Source: a virus. Taken from it: a DNA stretch of 21,715 bases. The stretch is from IMG/VR virus record IMGVR_UViG_3300025133_000681, positions 1 through 21,715 of that record. One strand, 5' to 3'. This document shows positions 10,578-21,473 of this stretch, one piece after another (positions within the stretch are counted from its first letter, which is position 1; each line of letters begins with the position of its first letter). Under the pieces are notes generated by a model. It saw only the letters and a list, made by a program, of their open reading frames with translations. It was not told the DNA's origin and did no database searches. A program made the translations under genes and the position numbers.

Positions 10578-12116
10578 TTAAAAAGTCCAGTAAGTACTCC
10601 GCTCTTGTTTTGGAGGGTCATCCCAATCGGGATCATCGGGGTGTTCTAAGTGCCATGACTCCTTCATATAGTGGACTGCCATTGTCATGGCATCCACCTG
10701 ATCATCATGAGCAGCGTTGGGAAACCGTATTAATTCCTCTATGAGGTCTTCTGACCACTTTTTGTTACTGGGTATCCACACTCTTCCTGCTTCCATGATA
10801 GGTGAAGCTGCGTAAACTCTGGATACCTTATCTCTATCTGGGGTGTATTCCATAACAGGCAACCCTGCTCTTCGCATATCTTGGATGAGTGACTGACCAC
10901 TTGCCTTCTTCTCTATCATACACACATCTGGCTTGTTATCAGCGTACAATCTCTGTGCAAGCTTGCGTAGTTCTGGGTATTCATATCGACCTTTGATGTT
11001 ACCTAGCAGAATTAGGTGGGGTGCTGCACCTTCGTATCCCTGTTCATCTTGATCATAGAGATAAAATATGCCCCATGTCTGGATGACACTGTAATCAGCC
11101 GTAGTTTTAGTGGAAAATGCAGTATCATACGTCTGAATTACGAAATCACAAGAAGGAGGCTCTTCATCTTCCCACATTTGCAACCATTTCTTCTTAATCA
11201 GGCCACCTTCTTCAGGTGTAGGGTCTTGCATGTAGAGGGAGTTCCAATATCGGCTACCATTACTTGCTTTTATTTCGTGTTCATCTACCCGGAGGACTTC
11301 TTCTGGCTTCCATTCAGGAAAATAGCTGCCACCTACAGGTAATTCCAGCAATTCTGCTGCATCTTCGTCCAGCCATGCAGGTATTTTTACTACTTCCCAA
11401 GGGATAATGTCGTAGTCACCTGCATTTTCCTCTTGTTTCAAGAGCCAACCGCATAGATCATCGTAGTGATACCTAGTATTAATGATTAATATGGAACCAT
11501 TAGGCATAATCCGTGTACGTAGACCAGCAGGATACCATTCTTTTACATATCGTCTACCTGCTTCTGAGTAGGAATCTTCTTCAGACATCACATCATCAAG
11601 GATTGCAATGTGCGCTCCACGACCCGCAATTTGAGATCTCACTCCAGCAGCATAATACATACCACCTTGGTTGGTTTTCCACTTACCTGCTGCTCTGACA
11701 TCGCTTCTTAGCTGCACACCTCTGAAGATCTTCTGGAAATCTTCTGTGCTTACGATGTCTCTGACAGATCTGCCGAAGTCAGAGGACAACTGATCACTGT
11801 GAGACACTGTGAGTATCTCATGTTCTGGGTGTCTACCTATATACCATGCAGGAAATAGCTTAGAACACAACACTGATTTAGAGGAACGAGGTGGTAGGAA
11901 GACCATCAACCTTCTGATCTTACCTTCTTCTAACTCTTTTAGCTTATTGGAGATAACTTTGATATGATTTCCCATCTTAAAGTCAGACACAATAGAAGGA
12001 GCCATGAGCTTAACGAAGGTGAGGAAATCGTCTTTTGATTGTTCTTCTACTTTTTGAGATAAGAATCCTTTAAGACTAATGAAAGATTCTAAAGCTGTTT
12101 GATTAATTTCTTTCAT
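10578..12116 (-). CDS. terL: Terminase large subunit
   Basis: The 512-residue product is the DNA packaging motor: an N-terminal ATPase and a C-terminal RNase H-like nuclease. Visible motifs are the deviant Walker A LPPRSSKS (74-81), Walker B ILDD (172-175) and the coupling motif NTRYHYDDL (213-221). Nuclease acids are D331 in TYDTAFS, E402 in MIEKKASGQSL and D475 in HDDQVDAMTMA. Length is normal and all catalytic positions are present. It is first in the leftward late module. No Shine-Dalgarno sequence precedes the ATG at 12116, and a promoter lies so close that the message may be leaderless. No small terminase subunit is recognised next to it. Confidence 0.95.
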   Translation of the reverse strand: MKEINQTALESFISLKGFLSQKVEEQSKDDFLTFVKLMAPSIVSDFKMGNHIKVISNKLKELEEGKIRRLMVFLPPRSSKSVLCSKLFPAWYIGRHPEHEILTVSHSDQLSSDFGRSVRDIVSTEDFQKIFRGVQLRSDVRAAGKWKTNQGGMYYAAGVRSQIAGRGAHIAILDDVMSEEDSYSEAGRRYVKEWYPAGLRTRIMPNGSILIINTRYHYDDLCGWLLKQEENAGDYDIIPWEVVKIPAWLDEDAAELLELPVGGSYFPEWKPEEVLRVDEHEIKASNGSRYWNSLYMQDPTPEEGGLIKKKWLQMWEDEEPPSCDFVIQTYDTAFSTKTTADYSVIQTWGIFYLYDQDEQGYEGAAPHLILLGNIKGRYEYPELRKLAQRLYADNKPDVCMIEKKASGQSLIQDMRRAGLPVMEYTPDRDKVSRVYAASPIMEAGRVWIPSNKKWSEDLIEELIRFPNAAHDDQVDAMTMAVHYMKESWHLEHPDDPDWDDPPKQERSTYWTF

Positions 12117-12553: not shown

Positions 12554-12575
12554 TTTTCAGTAGTACTACTGAAAA
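12554..12575. promoter_or_regulatory. 22-bp perfect palindrome, CAGTAGTACTACTG family, copy 1
   Basis: The core CAGTAGTACTACTG is flanked by TTTT and AAAA, giving a 22-bp perfect dyad, the longest of the family. It lies about 190 bases upstream of the first rightward gene and just ahead of a weak promoter-like sequence. A dimeric DNA-binding protein site is the simplest reading; as RNA it would form a 9-bp stem with a GUAC loop. Confidence 0.75.
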
Positions 12576-12586
12576 TTGATTAGCTA

Positions 12587-12614
12587 TTGTAATTTGTTTC
12601 AGAATGTTGATAAT
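12587..12614 (+). promoter_or_regulatory. Weak rightward promoter candidate
   Basis: TTGTAA (12587-12592), 16 bases, then GATAAT (12609-12614). Both boxes deviate from consensus and the spacer is one short, so this is only a candidate. It is listed because the rightward gene at 12762 needs a promoter in this gap and the palindrome at 12554-12575 lies immediately upstream. Confidence 0.28.
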
Positions 12615-12700
12615 GGGAGATAAGCAAGGACAAGCTCTGTTATTAGGTGGCAAGCCCTCCCATAAGCTCCCATCTATAATCCCGAAGAACTAGTAGGGAG
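12613..12700 (+). other. Leader with alternative pairing segments
   Basis: ATGGGAG (12613-12619) can pair with either of two CTCCCAT copies (12657-12663 and 12667-12673). A further GGGAG (12696-12700) can compete for the same CTCCC segments. Such mutually exclusive pairings in the leader of the 12762 gene could form a switch or a structured regulatory RNA. No known riboswitch is recognised, and short G- and C-rich words can match by chance. Confidence 0.3.
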
Positions 12701-12761
12701 TTATGCAAACTAAAAAAAATTCTTGCTTATATCTTTAACTCTTAACGAGGAATTTTTTATT

Positions 12762-13415
12762 ATGGAAAATTTTAATTTAAAGAACGCTAGTGAGACTGTT
12801 TTTTCTCAGTGGTCAAACTATGAGAAGAACAAGAAAGCTATCAAGGACGCTACTGTAGAACGTGACAGCGGTTTAATTGGTGCTTTCTCACATCTTGCTT
12901 ACATAGGAACGAACCTCGATCTAACGTCTAAAGATAATGCTATCCGCAAGGAAGCTAAAACCGAACAAGCTCACATCTTGGCAAAAATTGAAGATAAGTT
13001 TTCAGTATCTTCCCGAGAAGTGGCTCAGTCTTTCATGAATAAGTTTAATAAGACCTATCGTAAAAGCTTGGTTTTAGCTGATGGTGGAGAGCATAACACT
13101 GTTGAATTTATCCTAGAAATTTTTGTAGAAGAAAACTTAAAATCATGGGATAGCTTTCGCAACTATCAAAATGTAGTTGTTGAAGAAAAACTCGACAGCG
13201 AAGCTTCTCAAGTTTTTGATGAAATTTTAATTACTTTTGATAAATCAGATTATTCTGATGAAATTGAAGTTTTTGAAACGGATCTTAAAAAATTAATGCT
13301 TAAGCTTCAAAAGATGAAAGCTAAAAAGCAAGCGGATCTAATCAAGGAAGCGGAGCAAGCTGTAGAAGAAACTAAAAAGCAAGCAAAGCCTAAAGAATTG
13401 GCAATGGTTGCTTAA
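12762..13415 (+). CDS. Unrecognised early protein with coiled-coil C-terminus (217 aa)
   Basis: The first rightward gene stands alone as a unit between a control region and a strong terminator. The 217-residue product starts MENFNLKNASETVFSQWSNYEKNKK. It is mostly helical and charged, with no Cys and no membrane segment. Residues about 95-130 (VAQSFMNKFNKTYRKSLVLADGGEHNTVEF) look globular. The last 50 are Lys/Glu/Ala coiled coil. Start: a longer TTG frame from 12723 exists, but GAGGA precedes the ATG at 12762. Its own transcription unit, palindromes on both sides and the abundance-type terminator suggest a strongly expressed early protein, perhaps DNA-binding or the regulator of the palindromes. 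That is inference only. Confidence 0.8.
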   Translation: MENFNLKNASETVFSQWSNYEKNKKAIKDATVERDSGLIGAFSHLAYIGTNLDLTSKDNAIRKEAKTEQAHILAKIEDKFSVSSREVAQSFMNKFNKTYRKSLVLADGGEHNTVEFILEIFVEENLKSWDSFRNYQNVVVEEKLDSEASQVFDEILITFDKSDYSDEIEVFETDLKKLMLKLQKMKAKKQADLIKEAEQAVEETKKQAKPKELAMVA

Positions 13416-13420
13416 CTAAT

Positions 13421-13460
13421 AAAGCCCCTAATCATTAATTTGGTTAGGGGCTTTTTTTTT
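13421..13460 (+). terminator. Strong intrinsic terminator
   Basis: AAAGCCCCTAA (13421-13431) pairs with TTAGGGGCTTT (13444-13454), extended by one G-U and one G-C pair, with an 8-base loop and a run of T to 13460. It lies six bases after the stop of the 12762 gene and ends that unit. Confidence 0.92.
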
Positions 13461-13468
13461 GCTTAATT

Positions 13469-13486
13469 TTCAGTAGTACTACTGAA
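13469..13486. promoter_or_regulatory. Palindrome of the CAGTAGTACTACTG family, copy 2
   Basis: An 18-bp perfect dyad (TT, core, AA) lies nine bases after the terminator at 13421-13460 and about 35 bases before the second 21-bp repeat array. Confidence 0.75.
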
Positions 13487-13520
13487 TAAAGAATTGGAGT
13501 GAAAAATTTTTACATAATAT

Positions 13521-13592
13521 TATGAGTTGAAACAATATTCATATGAGTTGAAACAATATTCATATGAGTTGAAACAATATTCATATGAGTTG
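13521..13592. repeat. Tandem 21-bp direct repeats (array B), three perfect units plus a partial
   Basis: Identical units at 13521-13541, 13542-13562 and 13563-13583, each beginning TATGAGTTGAAACAATATTC, followed by a 9-base partial unit to 13592. There are no spacers. The array lies between a terminator and a sigma70 promoter (13622-13650), so an activator, repressor or replication-initiator site is plausible. The sequence differs from array A but the 21-bp period is the same. Confidence 0.92.
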
Positions 13593-13621
13593 GACACACT
13601 ACAAGGTGACCTGAAAATCTA

Positions 13622-13650
13622 TTGACTATCTTAATACTTTGTAGTATAGT
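13622..13650 (+). promoter_or_regulatory. Strong sigma70-type promoter
   Basis: TTGACT (13622-13627), a 17-base spacer, then TATAGT (13645-13650): five of six matches at each box and ideal spacing. The predicted start is near 13657, upstream of the gene at 13716. Array B ends 29 bases upstream of the -35 box and palindrome copy 3 lies in the transcribed leader, so regulation from both sides is possible. Confidence 0.75.
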
Positions 13651-13689
13651 ACTTATAAATAAAGATAATGTTTACAATTACTTAGAGGA

Positions 13690-13709
13690 TTTCAGTAGTA
13701 CTACTGAAA
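13690..13709. promoter_or_regulatory. Palindrome copy 3, lying between ribosome site and start codon
   Basis: A 20-bp perfect dyad (TTT, core, AAA). On the message it would fold into a stem with a GUAC loop. The only good ribosome site, AGAGGA (13684-13689), ends immediately before it and the ATG follows at 13716. Folding the palindrome would bring the two to about six bases apart, the normal distance; unfolded they are 26 apart. Confidence 0.7.
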
Positions 13710-13715
13710 AATGAC

Positions 13716-13979
13716 ATGAAAAAATATGAAACACATATAGGCAGAGAAATAAAAACAACTGCCAAACAACATAGGCTAAAAAGAATTTGGAAGCGTGAGC
13801 AAGAAACCAAATTCAAAATGGCTAAAGGTGCAGGAAAAGATAGCAAAAAATTAACTGTTTTTGATCCTACTGCACAAGTTATGGATCTGATTAAGAATGA
13901 TCCTAATGCTCAAGGATTACTAGGAACTAGGGAAGCTCATATACAATTTGGATCAAGGGATGTATTTGATAATTGCTAA
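13716..13979 (+). CDS. Small basic hypothetical protein (87 aa)
   Basis: The 87-residue protein has a very basic first half (KQHRLKRIWKREQETKFKMAKGAGKDSKK). Its second half is neutral to acidic (FDPTAQVMDLIKNDPNAQGLLG) and ends HIQFGSRDVFDNC. A nucleic-acid-binding role for the basic half is possible; no family recognised. An ATG five bases earlier (13711) runs into a stop after two codons. The ribosome site is separated from the start by palindrome copy 3. It is the first gene after the strong promoter at 13622 and is closed by a terminator, forming a one-gene unit. Confidence 0.65.
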   Translation: MKKYETHIGREIKTTAKQHRLKRIWKREQETKFKMAKGAGKDSKKLTVFDPTAQVMDLIKNDPNAQGLLGTREAHIQFGSRDVFDNC

Positions 13980-14018
13980 CAACATAATTTACTAAACTGG
14001 GATTACCCATTACGGCTA

Positions 14019-14056
14019 GGCGTATCAATCAAATAAGATTGGTGCGTCTTTTTTTT
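14019..14056 (+). terminator. Intrinsic terminator with wobble pairs
   Basis: GGCGTATCAATC (14019-14030) pairs with GATTGGTGCGTC (14037-14048) across a 6-base loop, using three G-U pairs, followed by eight T (14049-14056). It ends the 13716 unit. The G-U pairs make it directional: the opposite strand would have A-C mismatches. Confidence 0.88.
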
Positions 14057-14076
14057 AACTTTAACTAAAAAAAAAA

Positions 14077-14094
14077 TTCAGTAGTACTACTGAA
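14077..14094. promoter_or_regulatory. Palindrome of the CAGTAGTACTACTG family, copy 4
   Basis: An 18-bp perfect dyad 20 bases after a terminator, preceded by a run of A and followed within 8 bases by the AAGGAG site of the gene at 14113. No separate promoter is clear between terminator and gene, so the palindrome may be part of the promoter or the site of a factor that allows read-through. Confidence 0.75.
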
Positions 14095-14112
14095 AATTAA
14101 GGAGAATATCAA

Positions 14113-14307
14113 ATGACATTTAAACAATGGCTAAACGATTGCGACATATTAGTCAGCAATAAAATCGGATTAGGTATTGATTGTTTACCTGATGCTAACT
14201 GGCGTGATATGTATGATGATGGTATTGAACCGTCACTTGCTATTGATGATGCTTACAATGACTACTGGTCTGATGAGTTACCAGAAGAACTATGGTATGG
14301 AGAATAA
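14113..14307 (+). CDS. Small acidic phage protein, DUF5419-like (64 aa)
   Basis: The 64-residue acidic protein starts MTFKQWLNDCDILVSNKIG. It carries CLPDANWRDMYDDGIEPSLAIDDA, a pattern I associate with a short phage family of unknown function (often labelled DUF5419); this family name is from memory and unverified. AAGGAG precedes the ATG. It is the first gene of the long 14113-15899 cluster and ends one base before the next start. Confidence 0.7.
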   Translation: MTFKQWLNDCDILVSNKIGLGIDCLPDANWRDMYDDGIEPSLAIDDAYNDYWSDELPEELWYGE

Positions 14308-14308
14308 G

Positions 14309-14650
14309 ATGGGATTTTTTTCATGGATAACACAAGACACAAACCGATCTATACCTAGCAAGCATAGTTCACGTAAAACATTTAGTGTAACAATGCGTGA
14401 TGATCGTGGAAACAAATGGACAGAGCCTTCGTATGAAGGTTATGGAGATTTTGATGGTAAATGTTATTATGAATTGCTATCTGAAATGAATGGCTTTGGT
14501 TGTGATCGTGACAAAGGGATTAACCTTTTCTTTTCAGAAGATAAGGATATTAAATTTCCTACACTCACGGAAGATCCAGACGCACAAGTTACGGGAAAAC
14601 CTGCCGACTGCCCTGCTCAAGGTTTTTTCTATGGCCCAGAATGGGAGTAA
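14309..14650 (+). CDS. Conserved phage protein of the MGFFSW type (113 aa)
   Basis: The 113-residue product starts MGFFSWITQDTNRSIPSKHSS and contains YEGYGDFDGKCYYELLSEMNG and a tail PAQGFFYGPEWE. Proteins with this opening and the EGYGxFGG / ELLxEMN pattern recur in many unrelated phages with unknown function (from memory). Start: GGAG lies six bases before the ATG at 14309. An upstream in-frame ATG at 14297 inside the previous gene lacks a site. Soluble, no membrane segment. Confidence 0.72.
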   Translation: MGFFSWITQDTNRSIPSKHSSRKTFSVTMRDDRGNKWTEPSYEGYGDFDGKCYYELLSEMNGFGCDRDKGINLFFSEDKDIKFPTLTEDPDAQVTGKPADCPAQGFFYGPEWE

Positions 14651-14682
14651 TAATAAGGGGTAATTAATTGGAGAAGAAAGAA

Positions 14683-14703
14683 AAAGGTATATCATATACC
14701 TTT
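14683..14703 (+). other. Short perfect hairpin in the early operon
   Basis: AAAGGTATA (14683-14691) and TATACCTTT (14695-14703) form a 9-bp stem with a 3-base loop. It lies between the genes ending at 14650 and starting at 14722. The T-run after it is too short for a normal terminator, so an mRNA processing or stability element is more likely. Confidence 0.5.
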
Positions 14704-14721
14704 ATAGTAGGAGTAAATGAA

Positions 14722-14904
14722 ATGAAAGAGAGAACACCCAACCAAATCAAGCAGGATCGTGAAGACTCTGATAGAGATGATCGGAAGTTATCTGCTCATC
14801 TTAAGGGTAAGAAAACCATTCACCACAAAGGGAATGGAACAATAACAGGTAAGGAACGATGGCCTCATGCTGGTAAACCATTCGTAATGGATAACTGGAG
14901 GTAG
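14722..14904 (+). CDS. Small charged hypothetical protein (60 aa)
   Basis: A 60-residue, very polar protein (MKERTPNQIKQDREDSDRDD, then KGKKTIHHKGNGTITGKERWPHAGKPF). It is probably largely unstructured and has no known family. The frame extends upstream to a TTG at 14668, but that would translate through the hairpin. The ATG at 14722 has AGGAG eight bases upstream and is preferred. Confidence 0.55.
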   Translation: MKERTPNQIKQDREDSDRDDRKLSAHLKGKKTIHHKGNGTITGKERWPHAGKPFVMDNWR

Positions 14905-14909
14905 TTTTC

Positions 14910-15065
14910 ATGTCAATGAACAAACTCTTTGAAGATAAGATGGACTACTTCCAGTGGCAGAATGGTATGGAGTTAAGATATAATGTCATGCCAGCATGGT
15001 GGTGGAATGAATACATGAGAAAGAAAGCTTATCAAAATTATTTGGAAGGAAAATCATATGACTAA
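14910..15065 (+). CDS. Very small Trp/Met-rich protein (51 aa)
   Basis: A 51-residue protein (MSMNKLFEDKMDYFQWQNGMEL, then NVMPAWWWNEYMRKKAYQNY) with an unusual WWW run. GGAGG lies nine bases before the ATG, and its stop overlaps the start of the next gene. The Trp-rich helix could bind a partner or membrane surface; function unknown. Confidence 0.55.
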   Translation: MSMNKLFEDKMDYFQWQNGMELRYNVMPAWWWNEYMRKKAYQNYLEGKSYD

Positions 15066-15198
15066 ATGGTATGTCTGCCAAAAATGTGGCAATGAAGAAG
15101 AAGGTTGTGGAATGATATTCCCGTTTGAGTCATCACCAGATCAATGTTCTTGGTGTGGTGGATTAGATTTTAAATTGGAGGTAGAAGAAGATGGATAA
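15058..15198 (+). CDS. Zinc-ribbon miniprotein (46 aa)
   Basis: A 46-residue protein with C7-x2-C10 and C30-x2-C33 (YVCQKCGN and CSWCGG), the spacing of a single zinc ribbon. It overlaps the gene before by 8 bases and the gene after by 8 bases, with AAGGA upstream. Zinc ribbons in small phage proteins often bind host RNA polymerase, nucleic acid or ribosomes; which applies here is unknown. Two similar miniproteins occur at 19478 and 20750. Confidence 0.62.
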   Translation: MTKWYVCQKCGNEEEGCGMIFPFESSPDQCSWCGGLDFKLEVEEDG

Positions 15199-15415
15199 AA
15201 AATATAAAGTACTTGAAGAAAAAAGAACTGAAACTCTAGATTATGATTGGGTAGCTTTTATAGCTGAACAAGTAGTCGAATTGTATTGGGAATACGACAG
15301 GATGAGTAGCTGTGGTAAAGAAGCCTTAGATAAGTTAGCAATTATGGTAGGTATACCAACAGAAGATGAATTTCAAATGACAATGGAGAAGGAGAAAGCT
15401 AATGAAGTATTTTGA
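15191..15415 (+). CDS. Small acidic hypothetical protein (74 aa)
   Basis: A 74-residue, acidic, helical protein. DYDWVAFIAEQVVELYWEYDRM (about 17-38) is amphipathic, followed by GKEALDKLAIMVGIPTEDEFQ. GGAGG precedes the start within the end of the previous gene, and the end overlaps the next start by 14 bases. No family recognised. Confidence 0.6.
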   Translation: MDKKYKVLEEKRTETLDYDWVAFIAEQVVELYWEYDRMSSCGKEALDKLAIMVGIPTEDEFQMTMEKEKANEVF

Positions 15416-15599
15416 ATTTAATGACAACAATTTTAACTGGAATACTTTTATGACAGATCATTTAAGTATAATGGAATTTTTAAATAAAGCTCAAAAGAAA
15501 GCAATTATAATTGTTTTAAATCGAATTATAAAAGATTTAAAAGAAGATTTAGAATTTGAAAAGACATTAGAAAATATTAAACCAGTAAAAGTAAAATAG
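15402..15599 (+). CDS. Small hypothetical protein (65 aa)
   Basis: A 65-residue protein with an Asn/Phe-rich start (MKYFEFNDNNFNWNTFM). A helical Lys-rich part follows (NKAQKKAIIIVLNRIIKDLKEDLEFEK). AAGGAG lies upstream inside the previous gene. Very AT-rich codons (AAA, ATA, TTA). Function unknown. Confidence 0.58.
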   Translation: MKYFEFNDNNFNWNTFMTDHLSIMEFLNKAQKKAIIIVLNRIIKDLKEDLEFEKTLENIKPVKVK

Positions 15600-15612
15600 A
15601 AAGGATAAACTA

Positions 15613-15795
15613 ATGACAAAATATCTACAATTCTCTTCAACTTTATATCAAATAAACCATATAGAAAGTGGTGTACTACATAGTATACACACTAGTTTAG
15701 TGGAAGCTATGGAAAAAGCATATGAACTAGGAAAAGAATATGATGTATGGTTTTGTGCAAACTATAACCCTATCAGAAAAGAAAGGATAAGCTAA
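15613..15795 (+). CDS. Small hypothetical protein (60 aa)
   Basis: A 60-residue soluble protein (MTKYLQFSSTLYQINHIESG, SLVEAMEKAYELGKEYDVWF). It may form a small alpha-beta fold. AAAGGATAAACTA precedes the ATG; the same ribosome-site sequence, with one change, precedes the next gene at 15795, whose start overlaps this stop (TAATG). Function unknown. Confidence 0.58.
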   Translation: MTKYLQFSSTLYQINHIESGVLHSIHTSLVEAMEKAYELGKEYDVWFCANYNPIRKERIS

Positions 15796-15899
15796 TGGAT
15801 GATAACGAAAAAACTAAAAATAAAATAAAAGTAATACTAACAATTACGGGTTGTATAATGTTACTCTTACTGATGGTACACGATTATCACACGTACTAA
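15795..15899 (+). CDS. Single-span membrane miniprotein (34 aa)
   Basis: A 34-residue protein with a charged start (MDDNEKTKNKIK), one hydrophobic segment (VILTITGCIMLLLLMV, 13-28) and a short tail. ITGC resembles a lipobox, but the residues after the Cys stay hydrophobic, so a transmembrane segment is more likely than a lipoprotein. Start overlaps the previous stop (TAATG). It is the last gene before a terminator. Role unknown. Confidence 0.55.
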   Translation: MDDNEKTKNKIKVILTITGCIMLLLLMVHDYHTY

Positions 15900-15922
15900 T
15901 TCCTCAGTGAGAGCAACTCACT

Positions 15923-15936
15923 CAGTAGTGCTATTG
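15923..15936. promoter_or_regulatory. Degenerate palindrome copy (two changes)
   Basis: CAGTAGTGCTATTG differs from the family core at two positions (A to G and C to T). Both changes convert a Watson-Crick pair with the neighbouring copy into a G-U pair in RNA, so the transcript hairpin is kept while the DNA dyad is weakened. Confidence 0.65.
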
Positions 15937-15942
15937 AAATTT

Positions 15943-15958
15943 TCAGTAGTACTACTGA
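15943..15958. promoter_or_regulatory. Palindrome of the CAGTAGTACTACTG family, copy 5
   Basis: A 16-bp perfect dyad that forms the right arm of the terminator at 15920-15970. It is the only perfect copy embedded in a terminator instead of standing beside one. Confidence 0.7.
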
Positions 15959-15973
15959 GTCTTTTTATTTAAG

Positions 15974-16006
15974 AAGCCTGAGTCTACTGGGCTTTATACA
16001 GTAGAC
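15974..16006 (+). promoter_or_regulatory. Two mutually exclusive leader hairpins before the glycosylase-like gene
   Basis: AAGCCT (15974-15979) can pair with GGGCTT (15989-15994). Alternatively GTCTACTG (15982-15989) pairs with CAGTAGAC (15999-16006) with a 9-base loop. The two share bases and cannot coexist. The ribosome site GAGGAG follows at 16021. This could be an attenuator-like control of the gene at 16034; no ligand class is recognised. Confidence 0.35.
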
Positions 16007-16033
16007 ATTTATCTCTTAATGAGGAGAAAGAAC

Positions 16034-16627
16034 ATGTATAACGTACATGCCAAGGCCATATCAGCTTTATCTGAGGCTGATCCTAAATATACTTTAGCAA
16101 CAATGACATTTGTTAATAGCACTGTTCGCACACCCATATCTAGGGCTATGTCGGACATGACTGAAACCAAGAAGAAGGGTGCTAAAGCAGTATGTCTGAA
16201 TAATACTGCTAAGAACAATGCTTATAGGTATATCAGGAAAAACTATAAGTACCTACACCATGTAATACATTGTGATTACATGACTACCGCAGAAAAGATG
16301 GTAGCACTGATGGACATACCTAATATTGGACTAGCAAAAGCAGGGTTCATATTACAAATGTGCATAGGTAAAGTTGGATGTATTGATTGCCACAACCAGA
16401 ATATGTTTGGCATTGATAAGAAAGATCTTACTGTACCAAAGAGAGCTAAACTAGCGGAAAAGCTACGGAAATCTCACGATTACATTAATATGTGTGAGAA
16501 ATTAGGCGGTACTGAATACTTGTGGAATAACTGGTGTAAATTTATTGCAGGTAAGTATCCAAATAAATTTGACAACGCACATGCTGTATCAAGAGTACAT
16601 GTAGATGCAATAGTAACTATTGCTTAG
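16034..16627 (+). CDS. HhH-GPD DNA glycosylase-like protein
   Basis: The 197-residue product contains a helix-hairpin-helix-like segment IPNIGLAKAGFILQM (95-109) followed by GCIDCHNQ (115-122). This matches the order of the HhH and the conserved Asp (here D118) in endonuclease III, MutY and OGG1 type base-excision enzymes. The usual lyase Lys two residues after the hairpin Gly appears to be Ala (A101), with a Lys one residue later (K102), so it may be monofunctional or altered. No four-Cys iron-sulfur cluster is visible at the C-terminus. Start: GAGGAG is eight bases before ATG 16034; an in-frame ATG at 16019 overlaps that site. It stands in its own unit after a terminator. A divergent DNA-binding protein is an alternative. 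Confidence 0.55.
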   Translation: MYNVHAKAISALSEADPKYTLATMTFVNSTVRTPISRAMSDMTETKKKGAKAVCLNNTAKNNAYRYIRKNYKYLHHVIHCDYMTTAEKMVALMDIPNIGLAKAGFILQMCIGKVGCIDCHNQNMFGIDKKDLTVPKRAKLAEKLRKSHDYINMCEKLGGTEYLWNNWCKFIAGKYPNKFDNAHAVSRVHVDAIVTIA

Positions 16628-16635
16628 TTTAATAT

Positions 16636-16672
16636 ATCCCACAGGTTAGGAAGAACTCTTGATCTGTGGGAT
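16636..16672 (+). other. Long hairpin after the glycosylase-like gene
   Basis: ATCCCACAG (16636-16644) pairs with CTGTGGGAT (16664-16672), and the inner stretch continues with several G-U pairs to a loop of about five bases. No T-run follows, so it is not a standard terminator. An mRNA 3'-end stabiliser or processing site is a fair guess. Confidence 0.5.
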
Positions 16673-16689
16673 TATACTGAGGAAATAAC

Positions 16690-16791
16690 ATGAAAAAATT
16701 ATTAAAGATAATACTATTAGATCCTAGAGTGTTAGCGTATGAAGTTAAACCTTTACCTAAACTTGGAATGATAGTAAATATATTGGTATAA
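16690..16791 (+). CDS. Miniprotein (33 aa)
   Basis: A 33-residue basic and hydrophobic peptide (MKKLLKIILLDPRVLAYEV, then KPLPKLGMIVNILV). GAGGA lies six bases before the ATG. It may associate with the membrane through its amphipathic start. Short length makes it uncertain, but the ribosome site and the fit between hairpin and the next palindrome favour a gene. Confidence 0.45.
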   Translation: MKKLLKIILLDPRVLAYEVKPLPKLGMIVNILV

Positions 16792-16792
16792 T

Positions 16793-16806
16793 GGGTAGTA
16801 CTACCC
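16793..16806. promoter_or_regulatory. Variant palindrome GGGTAGTACTACCC
   Basis: A 14-bp perfect dyad sharing the inner GTAGTACTAC with the CAGTAGTACTACTG family but with GG/CC in place of CA/TG at the ends. It starts two bases after the 16690 gene and ends six bases before the ribosome site of the next gene. Confidence 0.6.
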
Positions 16807-19478: not shown

Positions 19479-19642
19479 TGAACTGCTGGCACTGCAAGAC
19501 TGAGTTGATTTGGGAAGGTGATCATGACATAGGACATGAAGATGAAATCTATAGCATGGTCACTAACCTGAATTGTCCTAACTGTGAGAGTATAGTGGAT
19601 GTCTACTATCCAAAGGAGAAAGAAGATGGAGATAAAAACTGA
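19478..19642 (+). CDS. Zinc-ribbon miniprotein (54 aa)
   Basis: A 54-residue protein with C3-x2-C6 (NCWHCK) and C33-x2-C36 (NCPNCES), a zinc-ribbon spacing, separated by an acidic middle (EGDHDIGHEDEIYSM). Overlaps the PP-loop gene downstream by 17 bases. Likely binds zinc and a nucleic-acid or protein partner; role unknown. Confidence 0.62.
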   Translation: MNCWHCKTELIWEGDHDIGHEDEIYSMVTNLNCPNCESIVDVYYPKEKEDGDKN

Positions 19643-20405
19643 CTTTAAAATACTAGTACCTATTAGTGGTGGAAAAGATAGTACAGCATCATTAATACTA
19701 GCATTAAATAATAATCCAATGGAAAATATTATACCTGTTTTTAATGATACAGGGTGGGAACATCCATTAACATATGAATATTTAAAATACTTAGAAGGTA
19801 GATTAAATATAAAAATAAATAGAACATTAGGAAATGTTACAGGAAAATATAAAGGTCTTGATTTACCTAACTTAATTAGAAAGATGGGTAAGTTTCCATT
19901 TGGAAGAGGTAGATTTTGTACAATGTATTTGAAGCAGTATGCTTTAAGAGATTGGTATAAAGAAAACTTATTTAATGGAGAAACTATATATGAATTTTGG
20001 TTTGGTATGCGAACTCAAGAGAGTGGACAGAGATCTAGAAAATATAGTGGTATGAATGGTTTAGATTTATATGATGTTGATGATGTCTTTCCACAGAGAT
20101 ATAATAAAAAGATGCAAGCTACTATTAAAGTTAGATTGCCTATTGTAGATTGGACTGAAGATGAAGTGTTTAATTTCTTGAAGAAAAATAAAGTTGATAA
20201 AAATAAATTATATGATGAAGGAACAAATGACAGGGTGGGTTGTTATCCTTGTATGTTAGCAGGTAAAAAAGTACAGGAACGTATGTTAAAGACAGAGTTT
20301 GGACAAGAAAGATTAAAAGTTATACAAGAGTTAGAAAAAGAAATCGGTAAGAAATACGAAATGTTTGATACCGATCAAGGATCTTGTGAAATTTGTAAAA
20401 TGTAA
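19626..20405 (+). CDS. PAPS-reductase-like PP-loop ATPase
   Basis: The 259-residue product belongs to the adenine nucleotide alpha-hydrolase superfamily with PAPS reductase-like order. It has the PP-loop SGGKDST (14-20), VFNDTGWEH (38-46), RFCTMYLK (96-103, C98), GMRTQESGQR (117-126) and LPIVDWTEDEVF (161-172). Cys pairs C206-x2-C209 and C254-x2-C257 suggest a zinc or iron-sulfur site, unlike short classical CysH. Members reduce PAPS, activate tRNA or insert sulfur into DNA (DndC). No other dnd genes are seen here, so the phage role is open. Start: AAGGAG upstream of ATG 19626; a GTG at 19599 lacks a site. Markedly AT-richer than the DUF932-like gene upstream. Confidence 0.82.
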   Translation: MEIKTDFKILVPISGGKDSTASLILALNNNPMENIIPVFNDTGWEHPLTYEYLKYLEGRLNIKINRTLGNVTGKYKGLDLPNLIRKMGKFPFGRGRFCTMYLKQYALRDWYKENLFNGETIYEFWFGMRTQESGQRSRKYSGMNGLDLYDVDDVFPQRYNKKMQATIKVRLPIVDWTEDEVFNFLKKNKVDKNKLYDEGTNDRVGCYPCMLAGKKVQERMLKTEFGQERLKVIQELEKEIGKKYEMFDTDQGSCEICKM

Positions 20406-21131: not shown

Positions 21132-21473
21132 ATGATTAAAGAAGGTAAAGTGTGGGGTCAAACTATCCCATTGCTGCAATCACCTGCTGTAGAGATACAC
21201 CGTATCACAGTAGAACTTGGTGGGTATTGTAGTAAACATGCACATCAATCTAAGATCAATGCTTTCTATGTTATCTCTGGTGAGCTAGAGATCAAGCGAT
21301 GGAAAGAATATAAGTTAATAGATAGTACATGGTTAGAAGCAGGTGATCTATCTATCGTACCAGCAGGTGAGTACCACCAGTTTCATGCACACCAAGAGAC
21401 TGAAGCACTGGAAATATACTGGACAGAGCTAAGTCATAATGATATCATAAGGGAAAATGTAGGAGGTATTTAA
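21132..21473 (+). CDS. Single-domain cupin protein
   Basis: The 113-residue product has both cupin motifs. Motif 1 is the run from G30-G31 with H36-x-H38 to G50, but the usual metal-binding Glu is replaced by Asn (N43). Motif 2 is G71-x5-P77-x-G79-x2-H82 (GDLSIVPAGEYHQFH). Three His remain, enough to bind a metal, as in some isomerases and mannose-6-phosphate isomerase-type proteins. Substrate is unknown; sugar-nucleotide or small-molecule chemistry, or a binding role, are options. AAGGAG lies six bases before the ATG; it follows the previous gene by three bases. Confidence 0.8.
   Translation: MIKEGKVWGQTIPLLQSPAVEIHRITVELGGYCSKHAHQSKINAFYVISGELEIKRWKEYKLIDSTWLEAGDLSIVPAGEYHQFHAHQETEALEIYWTELSHNDIIRENVGGI

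Follow-up and report, generated by a model that had tools for sequence, protein, structure and literature searches.

INTRODUCTION

Operators of the lambda CI/Cro type are short dyads around early promoters, clustered at one or two promoters beside a divergent repressor gene, and heteroimmune phages differ in both repressor and operators. For the elements considered here, the nearest described system is the operator/stoperator array of the Cluster A mycobacteriophages. In two papers on these phages (PMC9283540, PMC6550527), the stoperator sites of L5 are 13 base pairs (bp) long, asymmetric, oriented with transcription and present in more than 20 copies per genome; sites of this type are read by a monomer with helix-turn-helix (HTH)-type domains, the phages are temperate, with an integrase or parABS, and among L5, Bxb1 and TipsytheTRex the site motif and the repressor co-diverge. 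Here we describe a family of palindromes in the IMG/VR virus record IMGVR_UViG_3300025133_000681, positions 1 to 21,715. This stretch, hereafter the window, is the entire contig, a fragment of a tailed phage genome whose portal is most similar to those of HTVC023P-type pelagiphages and related roseophages. The genes of its structural half point leftward and those of its early region rightward, starting at 12762 with a gene called here gene 1, followed by gene 2. From comparison with related phages, the palindromes are probably private operators of a phage-encoded DNA-binding protein, dimeric or otherwise two-fold symmetric and most likely the gene 1 product, that would repress early promoters.

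RESULTS

A palindrome family restricted to the early region

The 14-bp palindrome CAGTAGTACTACTG is present in five exact copies, starting at 12558, 13471, 13693, 14079 and 15944. In a count-and-shuffle check, seven copies with at most three mismatches were found in the window against 1.2 expected, a number reached by none of 100 shuffled sequences. All five exact copies are intergenic and occupy gaps of the early region only; with intergenic DNA making up ~8% of the window, the chance of five out of five is ~3e-6. The first-pass annotation of this DNA had reported five perfect dyads, absent from genes and extended by their flanks to 16-22 bp: the maximal perfect dyads (22, 18, 20, 18 and 16 bp for sites 1 to 5, Table 1) lie exactly where it placed them, and its degenerate copy was recovered with two mismatches. 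It was equally right that two copies follow terminators, since intrinsic terminators precede sites 2 and 4, and that the structural half offers just a half site (2369-2378): the single match there, with two mismatches, covers 2365-2378, within a gene. What it listed as a variant at 16793-16806 is a genuine site but not a mere variant, being the perfect palindrome GGGTAGTACTACCC, directly after a predicted small gene, i.e. the private motif of four other phages (see below). This single GGGTAGTACTACCC stands alongside the window's own CAGTAGTACTACTG family and can be read as left over from an older specificity or as an imported segment. An Rfam search at the palindromes gave no family. Because the window is the whole contig of an incomplete genome, sites in the missing part cannot be counted.

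Related phages repeat palindromes of their own

A terminase search provided 80 close loci (designated L followed by a number), which were scanned for repeated perfect dyads. The close terminase relatives lack the window palindrome and repeat their own sequences at corresponding places instead: GGGTAGTACTACCC in L077, L094 and L099; GGGTAACGTTACCC in L078; GTTCTACGTAGAAC in L108; GTATAACGTTATAC in L100; AAGTGCATCGATACACTT in L103, L105 and L116; AGTATACCGATATACT in L091; TTTAGTGNCACTAAA in L095 and L104; TTGTGAAA-N3-TTTCACAA in L124 and L128, and TTGTGAAA-N2-TTTCACAA in L130; GTTTACANTGTAAA in L133; GCTATGCANTGCATAGC in L145; TCGGACNGTCCGA in L143; and GATGCAACGTTGCATC in L152. In most of them, ~270-490 nucleotides (nt) separate the first site from the start of the terminase, and further sites follow at ~1.3-1.6 and 1.8-2.1 kilobases (kb). 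The first-pass annotation had regarded the loss of the dyads from close relatives with conserved flanking genes as evidence against a regulator. Such a loss is indeed seen in L078, where the terminase is 92% identical and the window dyad is absent, but in L078 the corresponding gaps hold a palindrome of its own and gene 1 is a different one, which refines the regulator idea rather than refuting it.

Nearly all phages with a gene 1 of ~170-240 amino acids (aa) have their own repeated dyad, in two to five copies around the gene. Within the first 6 kb, one dyad is present three or more times in 16 of 20 gene-1-positive early regions versus 11 of 223 control contigs, and no repeated dyad was seen on the structural sides of the same gene-1-positive loci tested. 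In L130, a 59-kb record, the count is exactly five, with every site in the early region (44.6-50.9 kb). Among the early regions scanned, exact motifs are confined to phages of their own gene-1 family, the sole exception being the GGGTAGTACTACCC copy of the window. Within one phage the copies conserve their primary sequence and not pairing alone. The relatives without gene 1 have either no dyad families or a different, long-hairpin element. Near-perfect hairpins of 40-50 nt were noted in the early regions of L079, L080, L081, L083, L111, L115, L140, L141 and L153, all without gene 1, mostly 5' of start codons (e.g. at early coordinates 1955, 2299 and 5256 in L111). One core is common to all copies in a phage and the outer stems vary while remaining paired; with no T run following, these hairpins are not ordinary terminators.

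Motif-first scans were run on 2.9 million IMG/VR contigs. No multi-copy contig was found with CAGTAGTACTACTG. With GGGTAGTACTACCC, four contigs had at least two copies, all of this phage group: L077, L094, L099 and, newly, L180, the gene 1 of which aligns with the window subfamily. For TTTAGTGNCACTAAA and TTGTGAAA-N2/3-TTTCACAA the figures are lower bounds, among the matches listed; these scans revealed the new gene-1 loci L276 and L334. Within the same limits, L354/L393 and L384/L387/L398 (TTGTGAAA-N2/3-TTTCACAA) and L235/L283 (TTTAGTGNCACTAAA) show several motif copies and no gene 1 match, so that gene 1 is not in every multi-copy contig of these two motifs, which are less specific. L354 and L393, contigs of 103 kb and 201 kb from one sample, carry three to four TTGTGAAA-N2-TTTCACAA dyads and match neither gene 1 nor the terminase; their dyads are possibly an unrelated operator family sharing the half-site. 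L283 has five TTTAGTGNCACTAAA copies in one locus, also with no gene-1 match.

One locus from the motif-first scans, L210, is cobavirus-like: its terminase is 63-65% identical to those of cobaviruses of Roseobacter-group hosts and 23% identical to that of the window phage. Its gene 1 is 30% identical to that of L095, and TTTAGTGNCACTAAA-type sites lie just 5' of both gene 1 and gene 2, with a third copy (one mismatch) within the gene-2 frame. In its cultured terminase relatives, the cobaviruses CRP-4, CRP-5, P12053L, ICBM1 and ICBM2, we found no repeated early dyad family, save copies in terminal repeats and two-copy matches at chance level, and by inspection none of their early proteins of ~200 aa resembles gene 1.

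The palindromes co-vary with gene 1

Gene 1, the first of the early genes, lies between sites 1 and 2 and has a counterpart in every phage with a private palindrome. Its sequence is hypervariable, and its similarity between phages is not predicted by that of the terminase (rank r 0.07). Palindrome similarity tracks gene 1 similarity when the terminase is controlled for (partial Mantel r 0.39, 0 of 5000 permutations, for 19 phages and likewise for 15 non-redundant ones), in a test that is only as good as the half-site definitions, which were our own; it is also correlated, less strongly, with terminase similarity (r 0.23-0.31). Pairs of relatives with changed palindromes illustrate this. In L124/L130, all five orthologous sites differ by exactly 1 bp of spacer, with gene 1 being 69% identical and its neighbours 83-100%. 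The sites are also changed in L103/L091, where gene 2 is 96% and gene 1 55% identical. In L143/L152 the palindrome is replaced, with identities of 99% for the terminase (by score), 98% for a 251-aa neighbour, 75% for gene 2 and 39% for gene 1. For pairs with an unchanged palindrome, the gene 1/gene 2 identities are 92/93% (L103/L116) and 87/86% (L094/L099). Since gene 1 diverges and gene 2 is kept in the swap pairs, gene 1 rather than gene 2 is the cognate candidate; of the two proposed beforehand, the gene at 12762 is therefore favoured and the basic protein at 13716 disfavoured.

Searches with the window gene 1 protein alone gave no match in IMG/VR or in annotated phages, and the gene 1 proteins of L104, L210, L133 and L145 had none in annotated phages. 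Neither Pfam nor PHROG has an entry matching gene 1. The structure model of the window protein (predicted local distance difference test, pLDDT, 73.7) gave no convincing fold match in the PDB, and the AlphaFold model of the L103 protein was too poor for use (pLDDT 55.5). Weak collinear similarity links some gene 1 families: L100/L108 with L078, L124/L130 with L143/L152, and the window family with that of L103.

Position of the sites and possible mode of action

In eight phages (the window, L094, L099, L103, L091, L116, L108 and L145), a site is centred at +28 to +53 of the predicted start of a well-scoring sigma70-like gene-2 promoter, and several of them have an additional partner site upstream of this promoter, at -60 to -180. 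Nine gene-2 sites were scored against random positions; five of them, each from one of these phages, stand out, with promoter scores within the top 0.7-4.8%. Where sites lie in tandem, 32-34 bp (about three helical turns) separates them; those of L103 are at about -58, -90 and -122, upstream of the predicted transcription start, and one copy of its slightly asymmetric site is inverted. As sites downstream of a promoter fit repression and not activation, repression of early promoters is taken as the reading, with moderate confidence.

The gene 1 product, as a dimer or another two-fold symmetric protein, would bind the palindromes and so sit upstream of its own gene and in the short intervals that separate the early transcription units. 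At gene 2, the sites ~180 bp upstream and ~42 bp downstream of the predicted start could permit repression via looping or as a roadblock. The protein would shut off early transcription during infection and might also keep an incoming phage silent if its specificity is the same, each phage holding one private palindrome that would change together with gene 1; early shut-off, possibly with exclusion of like phages, would then be its purpose. Tentatively, we extend this to gene 1 as the founder of a new hypervariable phage DNA-binding family setting private immunity groups without lysogeny genes, where the protein and all its sites might switch specificity together, down to a 1-bp change in half-site spacing, as a module mobile between HTVC023P-like and cobavirus-like lineages.

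Table 1. Sites, genes and signals of the window (positions 1 to 21,715)
Feature	Position	Strand	Remark
Large terminase	10578-12116	-	Anchor gene for the relative search
Site 1, TTTTCAGTAGTACTACTGAAAA, 22-bp perfect dyad	12554-12575	.	5' of gene 1
Gene 1, 217 aa, predicted as all-helical, of no known family	12762-13415	+	Favoured candidate cognate DNA-binding protein
Intrinsic terminator 3' of gene 1, 14-bp stem and T run	13421-13454	+	
Site 2, TTCAGTAGTACTACTGAA, 18-bp dyad	13469-13486	.	3' of gene-1 terminator; centre at ~-180 of predicted gene-2 promoter start
Sigma70-like gene-2 promoter, TTGACT-17-TATAGT	13622-13650	+	Between sites 2 and 3
Site 3, TTTCAGTAGTACTACTGAAA, 20-bp dyad	13690-13709	.	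Immediately 5' of gene 2; centre at ~+42 of predicted gene-2 promoter start
Gene 2, 87 aa, basic N terminus	13716-13979	+	Probable regulated early gene
Intrinsic terminator 3' of gene 2	14018-14049	+	
Site 4, TTCAGTAGTACTACTGAA, 18-bp dyad	14077-14094	.	Between gene-2 terminator and gene at 14113
Terminator-like hairpin (degenerate copy and site 5), T-rich tail	15920-15960	+	
Degenerate copy CAGTAGTGCTATTG, two mismatches	15923-15936	.	First arm of terminator-like hairpin 15920-15960
Site 5, TCAGTAGTACTACTGA, 16-bp dyad	15943-15958	.	Second arm of terminator-like hairpin
Foreign-type site GGGTAGTACTACCC	16793-16806	.	Same as private palindrome of L077/L094/L099/L180

Between site 2 and the gene-2 promoter, the 21-bp unit GAGTTGAAACAATATTCATAT is repeated three times in tandem (13514-13592). 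Further into the early region are a PAPS-reductase-like gene (19626-20405) and a cupin, cysteine-dioxygenase-like, gene (21132-21473), both possible auxiliary genes of sulfur metabolism.

DISCUSSION

Alternative readings of the palindromes

The proposal of the first-pass annotation, that the dyads are sites for a dimeric phage regulator of the early units, is the best-supported reading on the comparative evidence. Several observations nevertheless weigh against gene 1 as a repressor acting at these sites. The failure to match gene 1 to any Pfam, PHROG or known fold means that a DNA-binding domain is not recognised in it. Its families are mostly without detectable homology to each other, the window protein being only ~23% identical to its closest relatives, and the co-variation signal could stem from genes linked to gene 1. 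Four of the nine gene-2 sites tested have no good promoter at the expected distance. Finally, the sites 5' of gene 1 are often found around -56 to -66 relative to the promoter with the best score, a position that would suit activation too; from sites near -60, gene 1 itself may be activated.

The absence of a recognisable DNA-binding domain in gene 1 also speaks for operators of another phage gene, either gene 2, which is small, basic and directly 3' of site 3, or one in the unsequenced part, gene 1 then hitchhiking or being a regulated target. We consider this unlikely, given that gene 2 is still 75-96% identical in the pairs with changed palindromes, where gene 1 drops to 39-69%, that the other neighbours in L124/L130 are 83-100% identical, and that neither HTH_3 nor ParB_N was found in the near-complete relatives. 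A role in RNA, i.e. as leader or processing hairpins or as antitermination sites read by a phage protein, would agree with the placement of the palindromes between terminators and start codons, with the terminator-like folding of the 15923/15944 pair and with the long hairpins, of paired and varying outer stems, found 5' of genes in relatives lacking gene 1. RNA hairpins do not, however, need self-complementary, loop-free centres, nor would they account for the conservation of primary sequence beyond pairing among the copies of a phage or for the tandem L103 copies upstream of the predicted transcription start. The symmetric, loop-free centres, the 32-34 bp tandem spacing and the inverted copy of an asymmetric site together favour a symmetric protein on duplex DNA over RNA, and we regard the RNA reading as improbable.

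A host factor (transcription regulator, nucleoid or chromosome-partition protein), to which each phage would be fitted in a different host, is the least probable reader of the palindromes and appears to us very improbable. That the relatives are uncultured leaves room for it, and no result directly supports it; against it, the palindromes co-vary with a phage gene, are replaced between phages of 98-99% terminase similarity and, for the two window-type motifs, are multi-copy in IMG/VR only in this phage group.

Lysogeny genes and related phages

Nine records, seven of them relatives of 50-59 kb, were searched for the tyrosine integrase (PF00589), large serine recombinase (PF07508) and ParB_N (PF02195) domains; none matched, though maintenance by other genes is possible. 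HTH_3 likewise had no match in the near-complete relatives, so that a standard lysogeny module was not found there. A ParB/parS-like reading of the palindromes thus lacks its ParB domain in these nine records. To the eye, the cluster c15 early protein of L099, L103 and L116 (RPHKTQRIV...NLIESLKNNGS) looks weakly ParB-like; PF02195 has no match in L105, which is nearly identical to L103. The search for a single-subunit RNA polymerase (PF00940) was uninformative, its control not being detected. Among the HTVC023P-type pelagiphages, portal relatives of the window phage, HTVC027P is described as lytic. In HTVC023P, HTVC027P, 023Pt_psg01, CRP-901 and DSL-LC04, no family of repeated dyads is present in the regions examined. 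No description of the palindromes was found in the literature searched, which mostly leaves out subscription papers and so does not prove absence.

Comparison with known systems

If operators of gene 1, the palindromes would constitute an easily scored natural record of a regulator and its scattered target sites changing specificity together, in phages that are apparently lytic, are related to abundant marine phages and had no recognised regulator. They would suggest that a self/non-self shut-off of early genes could exist even in phages that lack lysogeny genes. A testable partner protein of unrecognised fold is named, and the matched natural pairs, with the same half-site and a spacer 1 bp different, would be useful for structural work.

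The palindromes resemble lambda CI/Cro-type operators as short dyads near early promoters but differ in being single sites, distributed across several kb of early units that all run in one direction, with no recognised HTH repressor. With respect to L5, the differences lie in the sites, which in the window are symmetric perfect dyads of 16-22 bp, in their number and place (two to five per phage, early region only), in the candidate regulator, which has no recognised fold, and in the near-complete relatives, which have no match to the integrase or partition genes searched. What is shared with the Cluster A stoperators is the presence of multiple short and nearly identical sites, placed in promoters and in small gaps between genes, the single phage-encoded regulator, here a candidate, and the co-divergence of the motif with the regulator gene, here the candidate gene 1.

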